From Atopobium sp. oral taxon 810 str. F0209 (GTDB lineage: Bacteria; Actinomycetota; Coriobacteriia; Coriobacteriales; Atopobiaceae), in NCBI RefSeq assembly GCF_000466405.1, contig NZ_KE952948.1, positions 1-64,000 of the forward strand: 64,000 nucleotides of DNA. Direction: 5' to 3'. The translations under genes and the position numbers were made by a program. A model generated the notes under the pieces. That model was not told the origin of the DNA, did no database searches, and saw only the letters and a program-made list of their open reading frames with translations. Shown in pieces: positions 1 through 60,617 of the stretch. Each line of letters begins with the position of its first letter. Within the stretch, counting starts at the first letter, position 1.

Positions 1-11
1 GTGAAGTAGAA

Positions 12-108
12 CGTGGCTTTTGGCAAGCAGAGCCTCACTAGGGGAAAGAATACGTGGCGTTTGGCAAGCAGGGCCATGCTGCATGAAACAGTTCGTGGCT
101 TTTGACAC
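12..108. repeat. Direct repeat, 41-bp period (edge of an array)
   Basis: Three copies of CGTGGCTTTTGGCAAGCAG-like sequence begin at 12, 53 and 94, exactly 41 bp apart. The first two match over about 23 bp (one or two changes); the third keeps only the first 12 bases or so. The segments between copies differ but each contains a GAAA-like stretch. The array may continue left of the window. I see no gene in positions 1-140. Confidence 0.6.
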
Positions 109-23930: not shown

Positions 23931-24140
23931 AGTTCCTCAAAGGTGCATATAGGTTCCCTTGTCACCATCCCGCCCGAAAGGTTCACCGTTCATCACCTCG
24001 TTTGGAAAAGGTTCACCGTTCACCATCTCCTCCAGAAAAAGTTCCTAATTCACGTTTGGCTCCACAAAATGCCTGGTAAATTTTGTGCCAATGGGGAAAT
24101 AGGAACCTAATTCACGGTCTGCTGATGAATTGTGAACCGT
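23931..24140. repeat. 30-bp-period GGTTCA array with facing inverted copies
   Basis: AGGTTCACCGTTCA-type units start at about 23979, 24009 and 24039, 30 bp apart, with two weaker copies to the left near 23932 and 23952. After a palindromic centre (CACAAAAT at 24063-24070, ATTTTGTG at 24080-24087), inverted GGAACC/TGAACC copies occur at about 24102 and 24133, 31 bp apart. CCTAATTCACG appears twice in the same direction (24044 and 24106). Confidence 0.6.
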
Positions 24141-37795: not shown

Positions 37796-37812
37796 GCGTT
37801 TTCTTGCGCACA

Positions 37813-38002
37813 GATGGTTCAAGCTTCGGACGCTATACCCACAGATGGTTCAAGCTTCGGAGTATTTCCAAATAGATGGTTCAAGTGTCGGAGTTGGAGT
37901 ACACAAAACAGCTGGTCATTTTTTTCGGTAGACCGAAGGATGAACCATCTGTGTGAGTGTGCGCCGAAGAATGAACCATCTAGGAAATATCATCTAGGAA
38001 AT
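37813..38002. repeat. 31-bp-period repeat array, three direct and two inverted units
   Basis: GATGGTTCAAGCTTCGG-type 17-bp units begin at 37813, 37844 and 37875, exactly 31 bp apart. Two inverted copies, CCGAAGGATGAACCATC and CCGAAGAATGAACCATC, start at 37933 and 37964, also 31 bp apart. Between the sets lies the palindrome TTCGGT-AG-ACCGAA (37924-37937). A 12-bp direct repeat CATCTAGGAAAT at 37977 and 37991 closes the array, and its second copy contains the lgt stop codon. Confidence 0.8.
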
Positions 38003-53355: not shown

Positions 53356-53594
53356 ATGAGCCTCCTTAAAATCGCGCCGAAGCGCATCTCTTGTCGACAA
53401 ACACTATAGAGCAGACAAGCAAAACTCGACCTGCCATCCGCACTTCTTCTCTGCATCTACGGGTCTCAACTTGCCCCGCCCCTACAAAAAGATAAAATTA
53501 TAGATTCAGTGTGCGCTAACACTCGCTTCACACATAGTTTAAATACAGCATGTTGCTTGATGTCTGCGCAGGTAGATACGTTGTTTGGAGCGTC

Positions 53595-55946
53595 ATGAGC
53601 ATAGCTAATATGCCTGTTGAGGGACCTTCAAAGACCCCTTTGGGATCCGTCAAAGACTTTTCTCGCAAAAAAAGTCACACACATAAGGCGGCACGTGGAA
53701 ATGCGGGCATTCCGTTTTCTATGGGTATGGTGTTAGTAACCTTAGGCGTTGTCTACGGCGACATCGGCACGAGTCCCATGTACACCATGAAGGCAATCAT
53801 GGAGGGTAACGGCGGACTCAAAACCATGAGTAGTGATGTGGTTTTGGGTGCTTTGTCTCTACTGATTTGGACCATCACCTTAATTACAACGGTGAAATAC
53901 GTCCTTATTGCCATGAAAGCAGACAACCACAACGAGGGCGGTATTTTTGCTCTCTACAGTCTCGTGAGGCGCTGTAGCAAGTGGCTGCTCTTCCCTGCTA
54001 TGGTAGGTGGAGCAGCACTGTTGGCAGATGGCATCCTCACTCCTGCCGTCACCGTAACCACAGCTATTGAGGGTCTGCGCACCATTGAGGCAGTCTACAA
54101 CATCATTGGTGATAATCAACATATTGTTATTGGTATCACCATTACCATTCTCTGCGCACTTTTTATGATTCAACGCGCAGGTACCTCTACCATCGGCAAA
54201 GCCTTTGGTCCAGTCATGACTCTATGGTTTGGCTTTTTGGCAGCCATCGGTTTGATGAATATCATTACTACAGGGAATTGGGGGGTGCTGCGCGCACTCA
54301 ATCCTATGCGTGGTGTTATCTTCCTTTTCTCAGATATCAATGCAGCAGGTCTCATGGTGCTGGGTAATGTCTTCCTCTGCACCACTGGTGCTGAAGCACT
54401 GTATTCAGATATGGGCCATGTTGGTAAGTCAAACATCTATGCAAGCTGGCCTTTTGTAAAGCTCTGCTTGATTCTCAACTACCTAGGTCAGGGCGCCTTT
54501 ATTTTGGCAAACAGAGGTAACACTGGTTTGTATGGCATTGAACAGCTCAATCCCTTCTTCGAGATGGTGCCCGAAAACCTCCGCGTATTTGCCGTCATTC
54601 TTTCAACCTTGGCTGCTATCATCGCTTCTCAGGCACTCATTACTGGCTCTTTCTCCATCGTTAGTGAGGCTATTCACCTCAACCTCATGCCCCACCTCAA
54701 GATCACCTATCCCTCCAATACTAAAGGCCAGCTCTACATTCCTTTGGTCAACACCATTATCTGGATTGGTTGCATCTTTGTTGTTTTGCTCTTTAGGACA
54801 TCCAGTCATATGGAAGCCGCATACGGTCTAGCAATTACAGCAACTATGCTCATGACCACCGTTTTGCTTTTTGTCTACCTCCATACCATCCGCCACAAGC
54901 CACTTATTGCCTATGTGTTCCTTGCCTTCTTTATTGCACTTGAGGCTATGTTCTTCGTCTCTAGCCTGACAAAATTCCTACATGGCGGCTATTTCACGGT
55001 ACTAATGGCGGCGGCAATTTTCTTTGTCATGTATGTATGGCGCCGCGGCACCGCTATCGAACGTACGCAGACGGTCTATTTGCCAGTCAACAAGTACATC
55101 GACCAGCTCCGTGACCTTAGTCATGACGAAAGCTATCCTCTCACAGCAGACAATCTGGTGTTCCTTACTAACGATTCCAGCCCTGATAAGCTTGACCGAG
55201 ACATTCTCTATTCAATTTTGGACAAGCAGCCCAAACGCGCCCGCGCGTACTACTTCCTTAACGTGAAGGTTACTGACGAGCCCCGCACGCTTTCGTACTC
55301 AGTTAACAATTTTGGCACCGATTTTGTCTTTAAGGTACAGCTACGTCTGGGCTTCCGTGTTAATCAGCGCGTTAACCAGTACCTTTATCAGATTGTCTCT
55401 GAGCTCGTGGAGTCTGGTCAGCTGGCTCCGCAACCACATCGCTACTCTATTTACCGTAATACCAGCAGTATTGGTGACTTCCGTTTTTGCATGCTGCGCA
55501 AGGAGATTTCACCTGAATCCGAGATCTCAGGTGGCAACGCTGGCATCTTGACGGTAAAGTACGCTATCCGCCGTTTCTGCGGCTCCCCCGCCCGTTGGTA
55601 TGGTCTGGAAAACTCTTCCAATATCATCGAATACGTGCCACTGTTTGCCAAGGCAAAGCACACACACAAGCTTACCCGCGAACCTTACAAGCGCACCACC
55701 AAGCGTGGCAATACCGCATCTTCTGCGCCAGTTGTTGCTATCCCTGAAGTCAAAGTTGAGGAAGAAGAAAGCGATGTCTTTAGCGACGAGCTACGCAAAG
55801 CTCGCGAGGAAGCAACGCAAGCCGCAGCTACCACCCTTATCGGTGGCGATACCGCAAGCTTCCAACCACTTGTAATTGACGAAGATACCGAAGATGATGC
55901 TCTGCTTGCCGATGGCGAACTAGGCCGCGAAGAAGACATCGACTAA
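53595..55946 (+). CDS. kup: KUP-family potassium uptake protein
   Basis: Potassium-proton symporter of 783 aa. The first membrane segment holds the KUP signature VVYGDIGTSPMYTMKAIM, and about twelve helices end near residue 480. A long cytoplasmic C-terminal domain follows, ending in an acidic stretch. The ATG at 53595 has TTTGGAGC upstream; a frame 15 codons longer has no site. No c-di-AMP riboswitch is recognisable in the 190 bp before it. It is transcribed alone and ends at the large repeat region. Confidence 0.93.
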   Translation: MSIANMPVEGPSKTPLGSVKDFSRKKSHTHKAARGNAGIPFSMGMVLVTLGVVYGDIGTSPMYTMKAIMEGNGGLKTMSSDVVLGALSLLIWTITLITTVKYVLIAMKADNHNEGGIFALYSLVRRCSKWLLFPAMVGGAALLADGILTPAVTVTTAIEGLRTIEAVYNIIGDNQHIVIGITITILCALFMIQRAGTSTIGKAFGPVMTLWFGFLAAIGLMNIITTGNWGVLRALNPMRGVIFLFSDINAAGLMVLGNVFLCTTGAEALYSDMGHVGKSNIYASWPFVKLCLILNYLGQGAFILANRGNTGLYGIEQLNPFFEMVPENLRVFAVILSTLAAIIASQALITGSFSIVSEAIHLNLMPHLKITYPSNTKGQLYIPLVNTIIWIGCIFVVLLFRTSSHMEAAYGLAITATMLMTTVLLFVYLHTIRHKPLIAYVFLAFFIALEAMFFVSSLTKFLHGGYFTVLMAAAIFFVMYVWRRGTAIERTQTVYLPVNKYIDQLRDLSHDESYPLTADNLVFLTNDSSPDKLDRDILYSILDKQPKRARAYYFLNVKVTDEPRTLSYSVNNFGTDFVFKVQLRLGFRVNQRVNQYLYQIVSELVESGQLAPQPHRYSIYRNTSSIGDFRFCMLRKEISPESEISGGNAGILTVKYAIRRFCGSPARWYGLENSSNIIEYVPLFAKAKHTHKLTREPYKRTTKRGNTASSAPVVAIPEVKVEEEESDVFSDELRKAREEATQAAATTLIGGDTASFQPLVIDEDTEDDALLADGELGREEDID

Positions 55947-56632
55947 ACGCACATATACATGCGTACGCTGCGTACGTGCCGTTTTGCCGCCTGCATATGT
56001 AAGGTAAGCCACCCTTTCATATGCAGACGGCATTCTTTCTGCGCAGGAGGTTTGCTTCTTCTCGGCAAACATCAGTCCATCATACGGACAACGCAATCCT
56101 TATACCTATAGGCGGTTCAATAGCGTCGCGCGTTCCCGTAAACGGTTCAAAACCGTCCCCAACCCCCCCACACAAACGGTTCAAAAGCGTCGCTCTGCTT
56201 CAATAAAAGCGCTGCTTACCTTTTTGCTGAGGGTGCCTCTTGAACCGTTTGCAGATAAAAGGATGCTTCTTGAACCCGTTGTCTTCCATTTAATGCAGAC
56301 GGTTCAAAACCGTACCAAACGGCCGAAGAATGCCCAGGTAAAAATTGGCGCAAGGGCACATATTGAACCCGATGCGGATAAAAGGGTGCATTGTGAACCG
56401 CCTGCAGGGAAAGCGTGGTTGGAAAGGCACTTCTTGAACCCGTTGTCTTCTATTTAATGCAGACGGTTCAAAAGCGTACCCAACCGCCGAAGAATGCCCA
56501 GGTAAAATTTGTCGCAAGGGCGCTTATTGAACCCGATGCACGCAAAAAGGCGCATATTGAACCCGATACGAAGAAACTGCAACTAGGGCTATAGCAAAAC
56601 CTGCGACGAAGACTACGAGACCTGCTGGAAGG
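55947..56632. repeat. Large intergenic GGTTCA repeat region with 164-bp tandem duplication
   Basis: No gene is supported between kup and the convergent citrate synthase gene. Direct GGTTCAA units lie at 56114, 56144 and 56178; inverted TTGAACC at 56240 and 56270 (30 bp apart). A block of about 140 bp starting near 56266 is repeated near 56430 with an exact 164-bp offset: GGTTCAA 56301/56465 and TTGAACC 56270/56434, 56363/56527 and 56393/56557. Many units can fold, such as ACGGTT-CAA-AACCGT. GCCGAAGAATG (56322, 56486) also occurs in the 37.9-kb array. Confidence 0.8.
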
Positions 56633-58258
56633 TTAGCGCTCAGCAAGGGGCACATAGGCTTGGTTGGTCATATAGGAGTTATAAGCAGGACGAATAATAC
56701 GAGCAGCACCATACATTTCTTCCATGCGATGTGACGCCCATCCAGCCAGGCGCGCAAGCGCAAAAATAGGCGTATAGAGCTCTTCAGGTACACCAAGCAT
56801 CGAATAGACGAAGCCCGAATACAGGTCAATGTTGGCACAGATCGCCTTGTCTGTACCACGAACTTCTTTCATGAGTTCAGGCCCAATGCGTTCGATGGAT
56901 TCGATGAGACCCAGTCGTCCATCATCACCCTTTTTGTGAGCAAGTTTTTCAGCATAGGCACGCACAACCTCAGCGCGAGGATCGGTCTTGGAATAAACCG
57001 CATGTCCCAAGCCATAAATCAAGCCGCTGCCATCAAAGACCTCACCTTTGAGAATGCGTGTAAGATAGCTTGCTAACTCGTCCTCGTCATCCCAATGATT
57101 CACGTTTTGAGCAATGTCATCAATCATGCGCGACACCTGCGCATTTGCACCGCCATGTTTGGGACCTTTAAGCGAACCGAGTGCGCCAGCATAGGCAGAA
57201 TAGGCATCTGTTGCCGAAGATGACAATACACGGCAAGTAAAGGTTGAGTTGTTACCGCCACCATGTTCGGCGTGTAGCATAAGCATAACGTCGAGCATAC
57301 GTGCTTCATCAACACTAAAGCCCTCATCGCCACGAAGAATATCAAGGACCGTTTCAGCCATGGAGTAATCTTCACGTGCAGGCGGCACCAATAGCTGGCG
57401 ATTTTCCTCGGATGCACGATATGCCTCGGAGGCAACCGCCGCCACACGCGGCCAGCGACCAAGCAATGACACTGCCACGTCAATCTCGTGTTCGGGCGAG
57501 GTATCATCAGGTATTGGGTCAAAGGCATACAGCATGAGCGTTGCACGCTGTAGCACGTTCATAATGGAATGGCTGTAAGTCGCTCGTGGAAAGCTACGTA
57601 AAAAACCATCTGGCAGCTGGCGTCTCATACCGATGCGAGCCTTGAAATCAGCTAACTCATCGGCGGAGGGCAGAGCGCCAGAAAGCAACAGGTATGCAAT
57701 CTCTTCATAGCCAAAACGATCTTCATCAGTTGCGCCATGTACTAAATCAGCGATATCGTAGCCGCGCAGGGTCAGACGTCCTTCATCAGGCACCACCCAG
57801 CCATCAACTTTGTTGTATCCATGTACATTAGAAATTGTGGTCAAGCCCACCAAAACGCCTGAACCATCAGAATTGCGCAAGCCACGTTTGACATCGTAGC
57901 GCTGATAAAGCTTTGCAGGCACCTTATCGACTTTATCCATGCCATGATAAAGCTGATCGGCAACACCTGTGGTACCCATCACTTCAGATGGCATAGGGTA
58001 CGGGTCGCGCATATGCTCAAATGCTGAGGTGCCCGTCTCAGTCAGACGACGCCGTACCGACTCACCCAAAGGTGTATCAAGACCACCACCTGCCTCAATG
58101 CGCTTTACACGCTTTAAGCGACGAGTAATTTCGCGCATATCTTGGTCAGCACGCTCATCAGCAGGCATGCTGTGAGCGCTCTGCTTGTCATGAATTTTAT
58201 TGATAGCTGTGTCGTTCTTTTTTTTGTTGTTCTTTTTTTCTGCTTCATTTGCGGCCAT
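56633..58258 (-). CDS. gltA: Citrate synthase with extended N terminus
   Basis: Condenses acetyl-CoA and oxaloacetate; 541 aa, about 100 longer than typical enzymes. Residues of about 1-130 are charged and Lys-rich at the start, then lead into YDVKRGLRNSDGSGVLVGLT. The catalytic residues lie in LMLHAEHGGGNNSTF and GLGHAVYSKTDPRA. Many citrate/2-methylcitrate synthases of anaerobes share the GVLVGLTTISNVHGY region, so a methylcitrate activity is possible. AGAGGACC precedes the ATG. The ACT gene lies 14 bp upstream and is probably in the same unit. Confidence 0.93.
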   Translation of the reverse strand: MAANEAEKKNNKKKNDTAINKIHDKQSAHSMPADERADQDMREITRRLKRVKRIEAGGGLDTPLGESVRRRLTETGTSAFEHMRDPYPMPSEVMGTTGVADQLYHGMDKVDKVPAKLYQRYDVKRGLRNSDGSGVLVGLTTISNVHGYNKVDGWVVPDEGRLTLRGYDIADLVHGATDEDRFGYEEIAYLLLSGALPSADELADFKARIGMRRQLPDGFLRSFPRATYSHSIMNVLQRATLMLYAFDPIPDDTSPEHEIDVAVSLLGRWPRVAAVASEAYRASEENRQLLVPPAREDYSMAETVLDILRGDEGFSVDEARMLDVMLMLHAEHGGGNNSTFTCRVLSSSATDAYSAYAGALGSLKGPKHGGANAQVSRMIDDIAQNVNHWDDEDELASYLTRILKGEVFDGSGLIYGLGHAVYSKTDPRAEVVRAYAEKLAHKKGDDGRLGLIESIERIGPELMKEVRGTDKAICANIDLYSGFVYSMLGVPEELYTPIFALARLAGWASHRMEEMYGAARIIRPAYNSYMTNQAYVPLAER

Positions 58259-60116: not shown

Positions 60117-60617
60117 CTAGTTGTCTTCTGGATTTTCTCCTTCGGAAGCCACAAAGAGCATGGTAACATCCTCTGGCGTCTTGTCCAAAGCAACCGAAAG
60201 CTCGGTAAGCGAACGCTTGCGCGCTTTTTTGAGAATGCGCTCATAGGCTACGGGCGGTTTTTTGCCAGCTGCTTTGAGATCCTCAATACGCTGACGGAAA
60301 GTTTTGACAATACGCACGGAATCGCGGCAATCCCCATAGCGAATCTCATCGGTAAAGTACTGTTCTTCAAGGGCATTACTGCGCTCTTTATGGGACTCAG
60401 GCGCCATCGTAGGATAATCATCGATAATCTCGGCAGCCTCATCATGGCTCAAGATAGGCCGCAAAGTATCTTCGCGCGCAATTGGAAAACTAATACGCAT
60501 AGGATTTCGCTGACCAACAGGAGTCAGCATATAAGAGCTCATTGGCTCATCGACAATCCCTTTGATCTGGCAGACACCTTGACCAGGATGAACGATGAAC
60601 TCTCCAACCTCAAACAT
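60117..60617 (-). CDS. carD: CarD-family transcription factor
   Basis: RNA polymerase-binding regulator of 166 aa. The Tudor-like RNAP interaction domain begins MFEVGEFIVHPGQGVCQIKGI; the C-terminal helical DNA-binding domain includes RIVKTFRQRIEDLKAAGKKP and ERILKKARKRSLTELSVAL. CarD stabilises open complexes, chiefly at rRNA promoters, and is found in actinobacteria and related groups. AGGTGGGGG precedes the ATG. It is monocistronic. Confidence 0.93.
   Translation of the reverse strand: MFEVGEFIVHPGQGVCQIKGIVDEPMSSYMLTPVGQRNPMRISFPIAREDTLRPILSHDEAAEIIDDYPTMAPESHKERSNALEEQYFTDEIRYGDCRDSVRIVKTFRQRIEDLKAAGKKPPVAYERILKKARKRSLTELSVALDKTPEDVTMLFVASEGENPEDN

Follow-up and report, generated by a model that had tools for sequence, protein, structure and literature searches.

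So far, extragenic repeats of the REP type have been attributed to a single kind of partner, the Y1 transposase known as RAYT. The RAYT genes are described as invariably flanked by two inverted REPs, coevolve with them and correlate with REP abundance (Nunvar 2010, PMC2817692), and the REPINs, inverted REP doublets dispersed in the genome, presumably owe their mobility to RAYTs (Bertels and Rainey 2011, PMC3116915). The system described here has much in common with these pairs: a gene is situated between two palindromic repeats, with one cognate repeat family per gene, inverted doublets with species-specific sequences are dispersed outside genes and form mosaic clusters, and repeat abundance tracks the presence of the gene. 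It differs in that the partner is not a Y1 tyrosine transposase, in that the half-sites lie 63-69 bp apart around a conserved core and carry direct extensions of about 30 bp, and in that the modules on either side of the gene match each other directly in most cases (26 of 37), whereas the REPs around RAYT genes are inverted. The Y1_Tnp/RAYT family (PF01797) was absent from the genome under study (G000), from its sister species (G004) and from two further genomes (G001 and G003), with controls positive in 5 of 14 cases; as the defining transposase is absent, the system is not REP/RAYT by membership. Of the three guesses offered in the original prediction (a protein-binding array, a REP-like element or a folded RNA), the second nevertheless came nearest: the element is a dispersed, mosaic inverted repeat with a gene of its own, even though that gene is no Y1_Tnp/RAYT.

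Further known elements invite comparison. The BOX elements of Streptococcus pneumoniae are mosaic intergenic repeats composed of ordered end and middle parts, with a variable number of internal units; the likeness to them, which is one of description, lies in the mosaic intergenic organisation, and the difference in the cognate partner gene identified here. As with MITEs mobilised by an insertion sequence, short non-autonomous copies with inverted repeats coexist with a rarer gene-bearing form, but here without a recognised transposase family and without a consistent target duplication. With respect to the protein, the closest system is the AbiE type IV toxin-antitoxin: AbiEi and Rv2827c, both of them winged-helix proteins, each recognise 23-bp inverted repeats that occur in pairs, and neither binds the sites of the other (PMC7319586). 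Homologues of the partner protein resemble AbiEi models, and AbiEi is known to bind cognate paired inverted repeats; what sets the present system apart is a single gene whose product has a putative PD-(D/E)XK-like C-terminus, with modules on both of its flanks and dispersed elsewhere. In the open reading frame lists of the three gene cassettes of this genome only one gene lies between the modules, and an adjacent AbiEii nucleotidyltransferase toxin is absent. A literature search for the pairing of an AbiEi-like gene with palindromic repeats found no description; one may exist elsewhere.

The array between kup and citrate synthase

The window, that is, the whole stretch of 64,000 nucleotides that was analysed, contains the following features around the array.

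53550..55946, strand +: kup potassium transporter gene, left neighbour
55985..56032, strand +: hairpin 3' of kup, with 20-bp arms
56094..56584, no strand: family-1 array of 12 sites, with steps of 30 bp (also 34 and 41), convergent pairs at 63 bp and divergent pairs at 30 bp
56114, 56144, 56178, 56301, 56465: array sites in > orientation
56241, 56271, 56364, 56394, 56435, 56528, 56558: array sites in < orientation
56166..56258, strand +: convergent module 1, left-end core type, TGCTTCAATAAAAGCGCTGCTTACCTTTTTGCTG
56266..56399, strand +: repeat with 164-bp offset, copy 1
56289..56381, strand +: convergent module 2, common core type, CCCAGGTAAAAATT
56430..56563, strand +: repeat with 164-bp offset, copy 2, 88% identical to copy 1
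56453..56545, strand +: convergent module 3, common core type, CCCAGGTAAAATTT
56633..58258, strand -: citrate synthase gene, right neighbour

The kup and citrate synthase genes converge on the array region, as had been predicted. Between 55947 and 56632 there are 12 GGTTCA/TGAACC hexamers, which span 56114 to 56563. Exact spacings recur among them, 30 bp in six pairs and 63 bp in three convergent pairs; when the same 12 hexamers were placed at random, 5000 trials attained neither number. The predicted phasing of direct and inverted units at 30-bp steps is thus borne out, and the heptamer GGTTCAA, with 24 occurrences in the window against 7.7 expected, is equally frequent in none of 100 shuffles. 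The array is far from chance.

Three details require correction. The tandem duplication with a 164-bp offset exists, but it had been called exact, and the repeated segment is 134 bp long with 118 of 134 positions identical (88%), which makes it an old duplication of a module. The array had been taken to start at 55947; its actual start is near 56094, and the hairpin at 55985..56032 is a separate feature, probably the terminator of kup, with a related hairpin in the sister species. Finally, a 30-bp step was said to equal about three helical turns and to place the sites on one face of the DNA, whereas it amounts to 2.86 turns and leaves neighbouring sites offset by about 50 degrees around the helix; the one spacing that comes near whole turns is that of the 63-bp pairs. 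Because the 30-bp unit is itself copied, no selection for a helical face is needed to account for the phasing.

Several other explanations of the arrays were rejected. A coding function (30 and 63 are multiples of three) is contradicted by stop codons that are low in all frames and not frame-specific, and by steps of 31, 34, 40 and 41 that break the reading frame; the resemblance of GGTTCAA to a tRNA T-arm is one of sequence similarity only; and a phage or plasmid origin found no match. Searches for the array pattern gave one match in IMG/VR and two in GTDB, about the chance expectation. Two other features of the window may be recorded: a gene for a CarD-like RNA polymerase-interacting protein near the array (60117-60617), which is ordinary, and an unrelated, possibly coding 30-bp tandem repeat at 23962-24044, which contains GGTTCA and lacks the module geometry.

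Three families of palindromic repeats

This bacterium has three related families of palindromic repeats, which together number more than 100 scattered copies. A blastn search with the array region gave 55 matches in its own genome, so the possibility that the array might have no further copies, on which the original prediction would have fallen, no longer applies. The loci around these matches comprise about 32 intergenic family-1 arrays, dominated by three spacings (convergent at 63 bp, n=44; divergent at 30 bp, n=39; direct at 30 bp, n=68), with minor classes at 31, 40 and 41 bp. The 57 bases within a convergent pair can be aligned from copy to copy without a gap and contain the conserved core CAGRTAAAAATT. 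The basic unit of family 1 is therefore a module composed of a half-site, a core and an inverted half-site, to which direct 30-bp units are added and which is combined into mosaics.

A sequence model of the module matched 106 times in this genome and 28 times in one sister species, with many of the matches belonging to family 2, and had no match in 38 other genomes of the order. Array and module matches are confined to this genome and G004; genomes G001-G003 have no such repeat families, and stretches of G001 and G003, examined for this geometry with a different motif, have no prominent inverted-pair spacing. Family 2, AGATGGTTCA...TGAACCATCT, comprises about 38 modules, mostly single and with the 63-bp geometry of family 1. 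Family 3, CAAAMGCCAC, is represented by 95 matches at about 40 loci; its convergent pairs are spaced 69 bp and its direct steps measure 31 and 41 bp. Its core GCGCAGGTAGATTTTTT is similar to that of family 2, GCGCAGGTCAGATTTTTC. Pieces of all three families occur within the window, those of families 2 and 3 being as follows.

37810..37997, no strand: family-2 array, AGATGGTTCA...TGAACCATCT, with a 63-bp convergent pair and 31-bp steps
1..106, strand -: family-3 array fragment at the window start, GTGGC[GT]TTTG at 13, 54 and 95

The family-2 array lies between convergent genes, in a position that is conserved in the sister species. The genome is a draft of 38 contigs in which several arrays contain N gaps or lie at contig ends, and as family-3 arrays occupy many of these ends (C5, C6, C7, C11, C16, C23, C25, C28, C30, C34) the copy numbers given here are lower bounds; the repeats probably broke the assembly. 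Beside many family-2 modules (e.g., L097, L105, L110, L135) the segment TATTTGGAACGCAGGTGGGATACAAACCAC is conserved, which suggests that the full family-2 element is longer than the 85-bp module.

That the modules function as folded RNA or as transcription terminators, forming hairpins at the ends of transcripts, was one of the predicted options and is hardly credible. In other genomes the inverted arms reach 30 bp, the fold energies are below those of shuffles, and there is a slight excess of covariation between the arms (31 cells compared with 19.4 in shuffles). However, the family-2 stem contains two central pairs that are disrupted in 39 and 41 of 50 copies (about 80%), the inner arms of family 1 are systematically non-complementary, the modules have no consistent orientation relative to genes, and no Rfam model matches them. 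A folded RNA is not established by these observations, and an RNA hairpin function is not needed to explain them. A small inner hairpin in the family-2 core was also considered and rejected, its covariation not being above that of shuffles.

A partner gene between cognate modules

Three copies of a partner gene are found in this genome, each bracketed on both sides by modules of its own family, and the sister species lacks each of the three cassettes as a whole. In the first, a 332-aa gene lies between two family-1 arrays and the segment measures 2283 bp compared with 16 bp in G004; in the second, a homologous 331-aa gene lies between two family-2 modules (1590 bp compared with 43 bp); and in the third, a gene found by protein search lies between two family-3 arrays (2547 bp compared with 162 bp, where one family-3 unit is left). 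Of the 40 genomes covered by the same protein search, 14 besides this one have homologues, and G004 has none. Across the class, 111 of 298 genomes, in 30 of 125 genera, carry homologues in one to five copies; none was found in viral contigs.

The association of gene and repeat is general. With a threshold of E<1e-6 for a flank match, left and right flanks match each other at 22 of 29 loci in the discovery set, all 22 matches being palindromic, and at 15 of 19 new loci taken from the class-wide search regardless of their flanks, 13 of them palindromic. Mismatched flank pairs matched in 1 of 400 cases and random spans in 7 of 300. A repeat thus flanks the partner gene on both sides at 37 of 48 loci, and matching flanks are absent at the other 11 of 48; the best match is direct in 26 cases and inverted in 11, an orientation that palindromes render ambiguous. 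Each gene has palindromes of its own, even where several copies share a genome: only 1 of 46 pairs of such other copies has a 16-mer in common. Conversely, the seven most similar module pairs between genomes all have a protein-similarity rank of at least 0.96, and the mean rank of the top eight pairs was never reached in 2000 permutations; the overall rank correlation between module and protein is weak (0.07) because most modules are too diverged to compare. Gene and repeat coevolve, to which shared host ancestry may contribute. Copies that consist of the module alone also lie elsewhere in each of the two other genomes that were tested. This recurrent pairing of a gene with different repeats in many related bacteria looks like unrecognised selfish or regulatory DNA. 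In several homologues the matched stretch contains one stop (e.g., L174, G016:C1:2264268), which suggests that gene decay is frequent.

The partner protein is about 330 aa long. Among 24 aligned homologues the motifs GGES, PxLQ, D-[FY]-x-W and E-x-DG-x2-KY are invariant, with one exception at the second position of D-[FY]-x-W, and from these residues a PD-(D/E)XK-like nuclease core may be predicted. PADLOC models of AbiEi match 11 of the 24 (best 6e-10; the first-listed member from this genome has no match), Pfam AbiEi_4 gives one weak match among the 24 (E 0.017), and searches of NCBIfam, PHROGs and PDB sequences with the partner protein gave none. By analogy, the binding behaviour of AbiEi and Rv2827c would fit modules of paired half-sites with cognate specificity, and the predicted protein-binding array is compatible with these data, since AbiEi, which relatives of the partner match, is a family of winged-helix proteins with inverted repeats as their binding sites.

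A further reading is that the palindromes are operators through which an AbiEi-like regulator controls its own gene, and that the dispersed copies are passive debris of recombination. AbiEi and Rv2827c do bind inverted repeats in their own promoters (PMC7319586), and the 11 homologues matched by AbiEi models agree with such a role; yet the modules also occur downstream of the gene, where they are usually nearer to it (median 94 bp compared with 234 bp upstream), and dozens of copies are located far from it. Autoregulation alone is very unlikely.

We consider it probable that the array in the window is a non-autonomous copy within a dispersed-repeat system, in which an AbiEi-like gene is situated between two of its own modules and spread resembles that of REPIN/RAYT with an unrelated protein. 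Its basic unit is a pair of inverted half-sites around a conserved core, 63 bp apart in families 1 and 2 and 69 bp apart in family 3; further half-site copies in direct orientation, at intervals of about 30 bp, lengthen it, and such units are fused into mosaics. An N-terminal winged helix would bind the paired half-sites of its own module, and the putative C-terminal nuclease-like domain would nick or cut DNA. Modules would thereby be copied to new intergenic sites, and the whole module-gene-module cassette only rarely. The chances seem about even that this constitutes a mobile repeat system of a new class that is common in Coriobacteriia: a DNA-binding protein resembling AbiEi, equipped with a nuclease domain and without kinship to known transposases, would spread its own palindromic modules, with the gene between two of them and phased arrays of up to 12 sites. 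If so, a second, unrelated protein family would be accompanied by flanking and dispersed palindromes, systems of a repeat and its keeper would have arisen more than once, and many unassigned intergenic repeats of Coriobacteriia would be accounted for. The protein and its cognate module would then provide a testable pair for the spread and persistence of repeats, and a common gene without a curated family name gains a predicted binding site.

Placement of the repeats and comparison with the sister species

The repeats might instead serve the host, as operator or topology sites (BIME-like) at the 3' ends of genes and in convergent gaps, bound by the AbiEi-like protein or another factor and spread only incidentally. 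None of 60 family-2 modules lies inside a gene. In favour of a host role, family-2 modules are found in convergent gaps in 31 of 58 cases and in divergent gaps in 2 of 58, compared with 8 of 47 and 8 of 47 for adjacent gene pairs in the window. This bias is as compatible with tolerated insertion as with a topological role, as avoidance of promoters is equally expected of insertions that the genome tolerates. Changes between species also speak for a host role: mirrored positions change in parallel in many copies, GGTTCA here corresponding to GGTTCG in G004. In family 2, the left-arm half-site base is A in 38 of 38 modules here and G in 64% in G004, and the right-arm base is T in 87% here and C in 77% in G004. 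Simple concerted evolution was rejected as an explanation; orthologous modules are about as similar as paralogues, yet neutral divergence alone could yield that.

The sister species, with about 90% identity in flanking genes, bears on the same question in both directions. Its approximately 22 family-2 modules include at least 16 at orthologous positions, as a host role would lead one to expect, yet it has no partner gene. At 23 orthologous sites of family-1 arrays, recognisable modules are kept in G004 at 3, one of them the site between kup and gltA with a single degenerate module, and absent at 20; at the four family-3 sites that were tested, arrays are likewise missing or down to one or two units. 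Most family-1 and the tested family-3 arrays are thus absent or reduced to one or two units where the neighbouring genes are intact, and we regard service to the host as unlikely, though it merits some weight. Single leftover family-1 or family-3 units remain at some sites, which points to decay in G004, at least for part of the difference, and not to gain here. As G004 keeps its family-2 modules as orphans, the gene is not needed for their persistence, and they show that modules can outlast it, or do without it. Such orphans and leftover units count against the favoured reading of a dispersed-repeat system with its own AbiEi-like gene, as do the homologue loci that lack matching flanks.

Two differences from the sister species may be noted. 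At L099:1465-1773, compared with L165, a 307-bp family-2 insertion is flanked by CCTACATA/CCTACTTG, a possible target duplication of about 8 bp; this is the one candidate, as no clear duplication was seen at the other junctions examined. At L028:3395-5300, compared with L044, a segment of about 1.9 kb beside a family-1/family-2 array is missing from the sister species; it holds a DUF1835 gene and a gene for a small secreted-looking protein, and genes may be gained or lost preferentially at such arrays.
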